Assembly (NCBI GenBank): GCA_036925085.1
Contig: JAUPFP010000008.1
Span: forward strand, 7,360,173 to 7,424,172
Direction of reading: 5' to 3'
DNA length: 64,000 nt
DNA from: Brachycybe producta
Taxonomy: Eukaryota > Arthropoda > Diplopoda > Playtdesmida > Andrognathidae
Shown in pieces: positions 15,110 through 36,653 of the stretch. Within the stretch, counting starts at the first letter, position 1, and each line of letters begins with the position of its first letter. Below the pieces are notes generated by a model. It saw nothing but the letters and a program-made list of their open reading frames with translations. It had not been told where the DNA came from and did not search any database. The position numbers and the translations under genes were made by a program.

Positions 15110-15150
15110 ATGGCGTTCTTCCGCAGCCGCTGCCGCCGCCGCCGACAGAA
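15110..15150 (-). CDS. gro: Groucho exon, poly-Ala/EER segment (41 nt)
   Basis: The 41-nt exon enters in phase 1 and leaves in phase 0. Joined to the G left by the previous exon it reads V-LSAAAAAAAEERH. Fly Groucho has PAAAEERLRNSVSP at the corresponding place after its GP-domain start, so AAAEER is a recognisable family motif. The acceptor is cctccttgtgtatag and the donor is a consensus GTAAGTCAA. The alanine codons are mostly GCG and the segment is far more GC-rich than its flanks. The next exon should start with an R/L-NSVSP-like motif in phase 0; I did not find it in 1-15109. Confidence 0.87.
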
Positions 15151-16368
15151 CTATACACAAGGAGGAGAAAAAAAAAATTACATATATAAATGTATAATAC
15201 CCACCAAAAAAAAATGTAGATCATTGAGAATGGTATTTTTCATTGTAAAAGAGCAAACAAACAAACAAAAGAGACACAAAATGAAACAAACGGTGACGTT
15301 ATTATTAACAAGTTTGTAGCAAACAACAACAACAACAACGAAACTCCGCATAAACAAACTTCGTTTATAAATGATTCATAAACAAAAACGTCCAAAACAC
15401 AACAAACATCATCATCGGCATCATTGCATGCAAAATACCATTAATTTCTAGAACGGAAAAACAGTCAAATAGAATGTTTTTTCAAGGAGAGAAAGAAGTA
15501 TTACAAATAAAAACACACATATATATATATAGAGTGTATTATTATAATAATATGGCCACATCATCATCATTATTATGATGCACATTGGGCTGAAATAATA
15601 TTAAATAGAATATACATGTAAGGCTTATGTAAACATAAAAGAGAGAGATACATGATAGGCCTATTTTTATGTAGACATTGGAAAATGATGACTGAAACCC
15701 TTTTGCAAATATTTGTATAAGTTTATACAAAAGGACTATGGTTGCATTTGAAAATTCCTATCAGTAGTAAAATAGTAGCAGTCTGAACACGATGCGTTTA
15801 CACACTTGTCATGTTATTTATGTGACAAGTACATGGCATCGTCAGAAACCGGTCTTATTTTAAACATAATATATTAGCTTTTTGCATTTTGAAAAACGAC
15901 TCCAATTAACTGAAACGCACCTTATTTTAAGAAACGCCATACTATATACTATTGAACAATGGTTTAAATTGAAAGATAATTTGGATAATGGAACGCTAAA
16001 AGTTTCGTTTTATAAATAAACTTTTTATGAAAGTTTTTTTTTTAAAAAAAAGGCAAAAACAGTTTTTCAGTGAAATTAAAAAAAACCTAACATCGGATCG
16101 GATAGATATTGTCATAAAAAACGTTTAGCATAATCTTTTACCGTTCTAGTTTTGAAAAACTTTATCATAATTTTGATAAACTTTATCATAATGTTTATTT
16201 TTTAAAACAAACATTTGCTTGACGTTTTCGCGTCCAAATTTTACAAAAATTGTTATGTAACTTATAACATTAGCCAGTAACCACTGCAGTGGCGCTGTCC
16301 GGAGGCGACAAAAAACAACAATAAATAAATATCTATTCAGCCACCCTTAAATTAAAAAAAATTCTAAG

Positions 16369-16440
16369 AAAAGTTCTAAATAAATTTACAAACTTGAATA
16401 TAAATTTATATTCAAGTTTGTAAATTTATTTAGAACTTTT
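16369..16440. repeat. Perfect 72-bp palindrome
   Basis: Two 32-bp arms flank an 8-bp self-complementary centre (TAAATTTA). The left arm begins AAAAGTTCTAAATAAATTTA and the right arm is its exact reverse complement. There is no loop, so the whole segment can form one uninterrupted hairpin or cruciform. Confidence 0.97.
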
Positions 16441-16901
16441 AATAGTGAATAGAAAAAAAAAGAGACAATAGTATGTCATTAAATAAATAAATAAATGAAT
16501 TGTGAAAGTTCTTATTAAATCATCAAAAAAAAAAAGATAAGATAGGAAAGACACAAAAAAAAATGACGAAGAAGAAGAAGAAAAAAAACTAATAATTTCT
16601 GATTGAGTAAAGAAGGAAGAAAAAAAATAGACAAAGAGAGTGAAATGTATTTATAATATGTCTACATATAGTAGTAGTAATACTACATACAGTATATGTA
16701 TATTATGTTAGCTCAACACATATAATAAGACACTCTCCTATCCCACCCTACTTCATCTTATATATGACAGATATAAATCTTGAAAATAATTGAGTGATAA
16801 GTGAGACTAAGAAACAAGTATAAGAAAAAAAAGATTGAAAAAAAAAATGCAAAAGATCTCTCTCTCTCTCTTCGTTTTTTATTAAAAAAGTAGAAATGTA
16901 A

Positions 16902-16946
16902 AGAGAGAGAGAGAGAGAGAGAGAGAGAGAGAGAGAGAGAGAGAGA
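16902..16946. repeat. (AG)n microsatellite
   Basis: About 22 uninterrupted AG units. In other frames it translates to serine/leucine repeats. Confidence 0.95.
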
Positions 16947-33758: not shown

Positions 33759-33833
33759 CCCTATGATGGCATTCAATTCGGTCATGGTCACCTGTTTGGC
33801 TCTCTCCACTGCTGTCGCCACCTGTTGTTGGTG
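33759..33833 (-). CDS. gro: Groucho/TLE exon, end of Q domain (75 nt)
   Basis: The exon is 25 codons, phase 0 at both ends. It begins [15 protein letters not shown] and ends [10 protein letters not shown]. It continues the previous exon exactly as in TLE proteins (SQE then HQQQV) and contains the conserved ERAKQVT and ELNAIIG blocks of the second amphipathic helix of the tetramerisation domain. The acceptor is a T-rich tract ending ttttttccag; the donor is GTAAGCTC. The 75-nt length matches the vertebrate exon. It is too short, and lacks a start codon in the right place, to appear as an independent open reading frame, so simple ORF calling misses it. Confidence 0.95.
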
Positions 33834-35952
33834 CTGGAAAAAAATGCAAAATAATAAATGCTAACGGGAATCGGTTAAAATAAAAAAGAGGTTAAGATTT
33901 GAAATTATAATATTAAGAGTAAAAAGGATAAATAAGGGATCTCATCATCATTTAAAATTTGAAACTTAATTAAATTTTGATAATTATATATTAAAATGAA
34001 TTAAAATCCACCATTTTAATTTTAAGATGGCTGAAAAGTAATTTTGAAATGCATGAAATTTTAAATTTAAACTTTTTTGTGCAGAAGCAACATTTAGCAA
34101 ATAAAAAAAAAATTAAAAAGTTTGTTAAAAACTAGAATAATAAGATAGACATAAAAATATATCTTAAAAAATCTTCTAAAATTGTTTTTAACAAACTTTT
34201 TTCATAGAAAATAATTTCAAATTAATATAAAAATGATTTTAAAAATAACATAGTCATAAAAACGTTTTCAGCTACTACTAATCTAGTTTCTAAAATTAAT
34301 AAATTTGAATTTTGTTCTTAAATATTGCGTTTCTGTAAAATGTTTTCGCAAAATATGCAAATTTATTGTTCTAAACTTAGTAAAGCGGATTTACTAGCAA
34401 ACCATCTTTAAAAGAAAAAATGAAATATGTAAATAAAATTTATCTAAAAAAAAATTATTATTTGAAAAACAAAAGGATTAATGAATTAAGAATTTTAAGA
34501 TGGACGTGAAAAAGTGGTTTTCTATCATAAAAATTGGAAGGATAAATAAATTAAAAATAGGTTTGGGTTTGAAATGGAGAAGATGAACGGAAAAAAAAAG
34601 ATGACACCAACAACAAAGGCAGAAAAGCAGAAAAGACAAAAATTAAGAGACCAATGATGACGTCACAAGAGAGAGATGTTTCTCCCTCTCTATAAAGAAA
34701 CCCCTTTTTCTCTCTTTCTTTCTTTCTTTGAATGTATATATCACTTATTTCCTTCCTGAAATCATTTCAAAGAAAAATAAACTTTCTTCCAATAATAATA
34801 TCAATAGAGATGATCTTTGTATTTCTTTATAAGAGACAGCTGCTGCCCCTTGCCTAGAGGCAATCCGTACCAACATACTTCCATTCAATCTGTTTCTTCT
34901 TCTTCTTCTTCTGGACAATGGTCACCAACCACCAGTGACCATTCATGATTGATTGATTGAGAAAAAAAAAGAGAAGTTCTTTCTTTCATTCTTTTCTTTA
35001 TATTAGTTGTGTTTCCCTTTCCACTTGTTCTCTTTTCGTTTTGATATATACAATTGTTACATTGTGAGGAGTGACCCCTAAAGGGCCTAAAAAAACCCTT
35101 CTTCTCCTTCACATATATAAAGATAGATGACTCTATTCAACCCCCCCCCCCCCACGTCCTTCTCTCCAAATCCCCTTCACCTTTTAACCAAAGAAATACA
35201 GATTCTTTAAAAAAAAAAGAAACCTCAAAGACAGGAAACAGTACAAGAAAACCCCCCAAAAACCAGAAACAAGAATCGAAACCAGAAACAAATGAAACTA
35301 GAATGAAAGACAAAAAAAAAAACACTGAAAAAATTGCTCTCTTTTTTAGGAACAGACAAAAAAGGCGGCCATTTTGTTGCCTTCTTAATGCTAAAAATGT
35401 AGATGTTTTAGTTGAATTACTTAATGTATTTACCAGGACAAATATCACCAAAGTTTTTGATGAAAAATTTCATTGAATATCAATTATGAATTTATGAATA
35501 TTATGAAGAAGAAAAAAATAAGCAGAAATTGTTTAAAAAAATACAAAACTTTGCTTTAAAGCTTTTTTTTTTTTTGAAAAAAATTAAGAAAATTAGTGAG
35601 AAATTCTGAAAAAGTTTGTAAAATTTTATAATGCCTTTTTAATTAAGTAGTGTTTTTGTCGACAGTTTGAAAATTCTTTTTTTTTTCTACAAAATTAATG
35701 AAGTACACTTTAATTACCATTCGTTAAAATAGTAAAAATAACGATTAAGAAAACGGTTGTGAAATTACGAACTTTTTTTTCCCAAGAAACTATTATTAAA
35801 CAGCTTTAACAGTGAAGAAAAAAACCCTTGTAATCTTCACAACAGTTTTGCTAATTAAATTATTAAAGTTTTATAAAGAATTAAGTGCAGATCCAATCTC
35901 GTTTTTATTTGCACAATAATAACAATAAGAATAATAATAAGAATAACCAATA

Positions 35953-36534
35953 ACAATAGAACGTCGATTAACCGAAATTCGATTATCCGGATTTCCAATT
36001 AATAAATTTTGACGTAATAATATTTTCAATTATGATTGTGAATTTGTTAAACTTTTTTCTCTCCTTTTATGAAAAACTAATTTTAAAACTCGGATTATTC
36101 TGCTTTTTAAAAAAAATGAATATAAACTAGAAAGTGTTTTAGTAACTAGAAGGGTAGCAGCAGCAGCTCTCAATCAAGTTTAGGATATTTTCAATGTTGA
36201 TATCTTTAAAAAAAAAAAATTATAAACAAAAATTTAAAGAAATGTCATCTGCTTAAAGCTGAGCCCATTTTAAAACTTACATAAATAGTTTATTTTGTAA
36301 GATATCAATATGAACACATATTCCCTAAGTTACTACCATTCTAGTTTCTAAAAACATATTCAAGTTTCTCTTAATTTTGCAACCTGAAAGAAAATAATGA
36401 GAGTTTAAAAAACCAATTTAATAAATCATATAGCCATTAATCTGTCCTATTATCCGAATTTATTTTATTATTATTCGAATCACCTCTCTGTGTGCAAATT
36501 ATAAGTTAATCCGGATAATCGGCATTCTACTGTA
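35953..36534. mobile_element. pogo/Tigger-like non-autonomous element
   Basis: The right terminus reads TTAATCCGGATAATCGGCAT then TCTACTGTA; the left terminus is its near reverse complement (ACAATAGAACGTCGATTA, CGATTATCCGGATT). TIRs of the form CAGTAGAA...CGATTATCCGG next to a TA are typical of pogo/Tigger (Tc1/mariner-related) elements. There is no transposase. It carries a nested family A copy. Confidence 0.65.
36115..36405. mobile_element. Foldback element, family A (nested copy)
   Basis: Same arrangement as the copy at 20955: ACTAGAAAGTGTTTTAGTA..., ATGTTGATATCTTT, then AGTTTATTTTGTAAGATATC and ATTCTAGTTTCTAAAAAC. It lies inside the pogo/Tigger-like element 35953-36534, so it inserted later. 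Confidence 0.75.
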
Positions 36535-36590
36535 ATAAATATTTTAAAATTAGAAAAAAAATATATATATATTTAATATTTCTAACTTAC

Positions 36591-36653
36591 CTCTTGCGAC
36601 AGGAATGGAATAACCTGTGCCAATATGGCGTTCAGTCGTTTTGCAATTTCTGT
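36591..36653 (-). CDS. gro: Groucho/TLE exon, Q domain (63 nt)
   Basis: The exon is 21 codons, phase 0 at both ends, and reads TEIAKRLNAILAQVIPF followed by LSQE. This is nearly identical to the TLE and fly Groucho Q-domain segment after the EMHKQ motif, around residue 79 in human TLE1. The Q domain is the glutamine-rich N-terminal coiled region with amphipathic helices that drives tetramerisation and TCF/LEF binding. The acceptor reads cttgtttgcag and the donor is GTAAGTTA, both strong. The 63-nt length equals that of the vertebrate TLE exon for this segment. An in-frame upstream continuation (MKIIIILQL...) is intron read-through and not coding. The preceding exon (YYEMSYGLN... in relatives) was looked for as far as base 64000 and not found. 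Confidence 0.95.

Follow-up and report, generated by a model that had tools for sequence, protein, structure and literature searches.

Two complete tandem Groucho/TLE genes in Brachycybe producta sharing a near-identical WD40 tract, probably through recent interlocus gene conversion

The window, the stretch of 64,000 nucleotides that was analysed, is the terminal part of contig C8 (7,360,173-7,424,172) in a genome assembly of 295 Mb and 442 contigs. The whole of it is the interior of a single gene, here called groA, of which it carries 375 known coding bases. These are divided among four minus-strand exons, numbers 5-8 of 18. Exon 5 (63 nt, TEIAKRLNAILAQVIPFLSQE, window 36591..36653) encodes part of the Q domain, exon 6 (75 nt, 25 aa, window 33759..33833) its end, and exon 7 (196 nt, window 18056..18251) the start of the GP region; exon 8 (41 nt, window 15110..15150) ends in ...AAAEERH. 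Each exon is preceded by AG and followed by GT, and the reading frame is continuous through all four when joined. A 109-nt stretch over the start of exon 7 is 83.5% identical to the neighbouring gene groB, described below.

An earlier note on this DNA had assigned the four exons to the Groucho/TLE family and had asked for a protein search with the joined sequence. In that search the 111 aa of the first three exons matched human TLE1 (4om3) with an E-value of 4.2e-31. The peptide of all four matched Pfam TLE_N (E 1.1e-21), in agreement with the Q domain content proposed. Matches of this strength go well past what chance would give. The family assignment is thus supported by the protein match, the domain matches and an intact spliced frame of 734 aa. 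No exon lies in a long open reading frame: without a stop, the coding frames extend over just 93, 50, 88 and 54 codons, and ORF calling would miss all four, as had been claimed. The wording that three of them lie in or beside misleading ORFs was generous. It holds for the 196-nt exon, which overlaps an other-frame ORF of at least 100 aa (window 18079-18384), and not for the 63-, 75- and 41-nt exons, which overlap other-frame stop-to-stop stretches of 50-99 codons. The 63- and 75-nt lengths probably equal those of vertebrate TLE exons, and this part of the gene structure may be ancient, as the note proposed.

The remainder of the window is groA intron, on the minus strand. It includes the 3' part of intron 4 (window 36654..64000; about 39.9 kb in total, with the 5' part on contig C50 after exon 4), intron 6 (window 18252..33758, 15.5 kb) and the 5' part of intron 8 (window 1..15109; 25.6 kb in total). 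Long (TA)n arrays were observed in groA introns at window 27781-27956, 37053-37439, 54295-54369 and 63494-64000, the last at the contig end. An Rfam scan of the window at gathering thresholds gave no matches, and a Pfam scan of all 25 window ORFs of at least 100 aa gave nothing above family cut-offs. The best of five weak, sub-cut-off Pfam matches was to CPP1-like (E 3.4e-4), in a low-complexity ORF. The scan for genes nested in the groA introns took in ORFs of at least 100 aa, and a smaller nested gene could be present.

Missing exons were located by tblastn of C8:7,270,173-7,424,172 and C50:1,410,001-1,459,169 (203 kb) with a TLE1-like query, and exon borders were then fixed by reading the sequence. 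Exon 8 continues in frame into exon 9 (RNSVSPNEREKYRSRSP, C8:7349714-7349607), which lies outside the window. Exons 9-18, ten exons that include the WD40 propeller, occupy C8:7,349,714-7,339,563, about 10.5 to 20.6 kb past the first base of the window. The 5' exons are on C50, the last three on its plus strand. Exon 1 (27 nt, MYPNPARHP, C50:1,424,705) is the sole match to a start-plus-donor pattern in 20 kb upstream; it is followed by exon 2 (C50:1,430,112-1,430,209), exon 3 (C50:1,439,017-1,439,080) and exon 4 (C50:1,443,122-1,443,166). The end phase of exon 4 fits exon 5 in the window. Spliced across the two contigs, the 18 exons encode an uninterrupted protein of 734 aa. The gene spans about 115.7 kb (the sum of its parts on the two contigs), and its longest intron measures about 39.9 kb. 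Annotation based on single contigs or on ORFs would miss or break groA, because the gene is split over two contigs and has 375 known coding bases in the 64 kb of the window. Taken by itself groA is an ordinary Groucho gene, and the interest lies in its surroundings.

The join between the contigs was examined at their ends. Window positions 60589..63581 overlap the last 2,987 nt of C50, with the end of C8 reversed, at 2 mismatches and 20 gap columns. When a 2,981-base query from the overlap was searched against the genome (40 of 5,137 first-look candidates scored), the only full-length matches were the ends of C50 and C8; the other 108 of 110 matches were partial, mostly to a dispersed repeat some 200 bases long. 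Beyond the overlap lie 419 bases of (TA)n (window 63582..64000), which are probably the cause of the assembly break. Two points count against the join, namely the 20 gap columns and the fact that the last 419 bases of C8 meet only a short (TA)n on C50. A hairpin of a dispersed family was also seen at window 62747-62948, with 92-nt arms that are 91% complementary and 18 nt apart. This element, which we presume from its appearance to be a MITE, accounts for most of the partial matches of the 3-kb overlap query among the same 40 of 5,137 candidates.

A second Groucho gene, groB (17 exons, 12.1 kb, 726 aa, C8:7,334,250-7,322,133), begins 5.3 kb past the stop of groA and runs in the same direction, forming a head-to-tail tandem with it. 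The lengths of groB exons 2-6 (98, 64, 45, 63 and 75 nt) equal those of their groA counterparts exactly, at equal places. For groB exon 1 (MYPAPSRHPTA) a sole pattern match was found in the 8.5 kb searched, with the donor assigned from sequence alone. Within the linker (exons 11-12) the genes are interrupted by introns at different positions. A 66-nt intron in the first WD exon of groA (exons 14/15, C8:7340836-7340521) is absent from groB exon 14 (C8:7323921-7323672), and would have been either gained in groA or lost from groB after duplication. All modelled introns of both genes are GT-AG. The WD core, searched against the genome (59 of 59 candidates scored), gave two full Groucho matches, groA and groB, and revealed no further Groucho WD domain; of the 15 matches, the remaining 13 were WD proteins at 26-38% identity. 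About 4 kb past the groB stop, a collagen-like Gly-X-Y stretch (C8:7317992-7318249, plus strand) was noticed as a weak tblastn match.

To our knowledge, Groucho/TLE genes are found throughout animals. Groucho proteins form tetramers through the Q domain, bind WRPW/eh1 repressors through the WD40 domain and silence the targets of these. Both products carry the Q domain PF03920 (TLE_N; 216.6 bits in groA, E 1e-64, and 214 bits in groB, cut-off 32), and the groA WD40 domain matches human TLE1 (1gxr) over 333 residues with an E-value of 1.8e-221. TLE1 numbering was anchored on the last residue, 770. The hydrophobic ring of TLE1 that binds WRPW is given in PMC3419727 as Y532, Y578, L636, F661, L702 and L743. 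All six residues are conserved in groA and in groB with the letters named in that paper, and this agreement supports the numbering. Like Drosophila groucho and vertebrate TLE1-4, the two genes have a Q domain, a linker and a C-terminal WD40 propeller with the WRPW/eh1 pocket. They are predicted to encode ordinary Groucho proteins, which would form Q-domain tetramers and whose WD40 face would bind the WRPW/eh1 motifs of DNA-bound repressors and silence their targets.

The two genes share a tract made up of exons 16-17 with the intron that separates them, plus 20 bases of flank. It measures 726 bp (208 codons) and is 99.45% identical (4 mismatches). It starts 4 nt before exon 16 and stops 16 nt past the end of exon 17; the first 13 of those 16 bases are the same in both genes. 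The enclosed 82-nt intron shows no difference between groA and groB, while neighbouring introns are unalignable and the flanking WD exons are 79-84% identical. There are 3 synonymous differences at 145.2 sites and no amino-acid changes inside the tract; outside exons 16-17 there are 267.8 synonymous differences at 356.0 sites, which is saturation and implies either an ancient duplication or fast evolution of the genes. Of 565 degenerate codons, as many as 119 are identical in one unbroken run, whereas 10,000 shuffles gave no run above 31. GC3 is 0.57 in the tract, and 0.47 (groA) and 0.40 (groB) in the WD flanks. Protein identity between groA and groB is 99/115 in the Q region (without exon 1), 167/263 aligned positions in the linker and 322/330 in the WD domain. 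The tract covers most of the WD40 propeller (TLE1 residues 528-735) and holds five of the six ring residues named in PMC3419727. Searched against the genome, the tract DNA occurred at two places only, groA and groB, with the copies about 17 kb apart on C8. No second tract was found: the other same-strand DNA matches between the genes were exons at 71-84% or matches of 30-124 bases, none of them longer than 50 bases at 90% identity or above.

Local identity far above that of the flanks, extending to synonymous and intron sites and ending at abrupt borders, is the pattern by which gene conversion is recognised. Interlocus gene conversion is the simplest account of the tract. Judged from sequence, we consider it highly probable that the window exons belong to groA as one of two complete tandem Groucho/TLE genes, and that the tract arose by recent interlocus gene conversion. 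One feature counts against conversion: the tract borders lie almost on splice sites, which conversion does not require. Their sharpness would also fit an artefact of assembly or polishing in which the tract of one copy had been placed in both genes, and the assembly is apparently indel-prone, as is suggested by the 3-kb overlap, where gap columns number 20 and mismatches 2. Such an artefact is nevertheless improbable, since three synonymous sites within the tract distinguish the copies, which lie in distinct flanks on a single contig, and polishing was judged unable to raise an identity of about 80% to 99%. The encoded region is extremely conserved relative to human TLE1, as would be expected if selection at the DNA level, for example on a regulatory or splicing element, had held the tract without any conversion. 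That explanation fails on exons 4, 6 and 14, which are equally conserved in protein (0, 0 and 3 non-synonymous differences) and have pS of 0.71-0.87; in addition, the identical stretch takes in an intron whose neighbours cannot be aligned. We give it a very small chance.

Two further readings concern the gene models themselves. With exons on another contig and TLE_N matches on both, the Q-domain exons of C50 might be ascribed to a haplotig or to a further Groucho gene distinct from the other two, which would leave the window gene as a 5'-truncated copy. We regard this as very unlikely. The contig ends overlap by 3 kb in the correct orientation, the phase of C50 exon 4 fits window exon 5, and the genome search gave two Groucho WD domains; within the 203 kb searched, moreover, apart from the groB copies, exons 2-4 were found on C50 and exons 5-7 in the window. 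The divergence of the central region between the copies and the huge introns of groA could likewise be taken as marks of a decaying pseudogene in one of the pair. Against this stand the intact frames of 734 and 726 codons, the GT-AG borders of every modelled intron, and a dN of 0.056 in conserved exons outside the tract, where synonymous sites are saturated. The low dN and the saturation together imply long purifying selection, and decay of either gene is scarcely credible.

If recent interlocus gene conversion is the correct reading, it would have overwritten the tract of one gene copy with that of the other, and either could have been the donor. Conversion would then keep the two WD40 faces alike, or would recently have made them so, in a pair that differs in its Q and linker/SP parts and in intron load. 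A broader and more tentative idea, which we hold possible but doubtful, is domain-specific concerted evolution. Repeated conversion would keep a shared WD40 face that reads repressor motifs in both co-repressors, with the oligomerisation and regulatory regions, the intron loads and presumably expression having diverged.

Groucho genes are a known kind, as are tandem duplicates in the Groucho/TLE family. Drosophila has a single groucho gene, and AES is a shortened member of the family that lacks the WD domain. The present locus differs from Drosophila groucho and vertebrate TLE1-4 in having tandem copies that share the exon 16-17 tract, with one copy of about 116 kb. PMC2997355 proposes that AES/GRG5 (TLE5) originated by tandem duplication of TLE2; groA and groB resemble that case, as described there, in being a tandem duplication of a long Groucho/TLE gene, and differ from AES in that both are full length. 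As in interlocus conversions of tandem duplicates, neighbours that have otherwise diverged show high identity over a short tract of both coding and intron sequence. Here, unlike in those, it lies in a conserved developmental co-repressor and is limited to most of one functional domain. In literature searched at the level of titles and the starts of abstracts, no report of a conversion tract in a Groucho pair was found among the papers listed. The pair offers a natural test of divided labour, with the same peptide-binding face and different Q and linker regions. Trees built from the WD40 core would wrongly date the groA/groB duplication as very recent. The locus also illustrates that a 64-kb stretch can sit wholly within one conserved gene and carry 375 known coding bases.

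Other loci were noted in the same genome. Profile matches included 33 to Chitin_bind_4 (cuticle protein) and 2 to OS-D, families that we take to be arthropod markers. Contig C442 (15,359 bases) is mitochondrial, with a COX1 that has ten in-frame TGA codons and was read with table 5. ARAGORN returned no tRNA on C442, and gene order there was read from ORFs only. That order is apparently rearranged against the arthropod ground pattern, with nad4L, nad4 and nad5 on the cox1 strand, nad2 after cob, and nad1 on the opposite strand. COX1-like copies were also seen on much longer contigs, at C1:12697416-12698753 (with an in-frame TAA) and C17:4027703-4029047, and these are probably mitochondrial DNA inserted in the nucleus.
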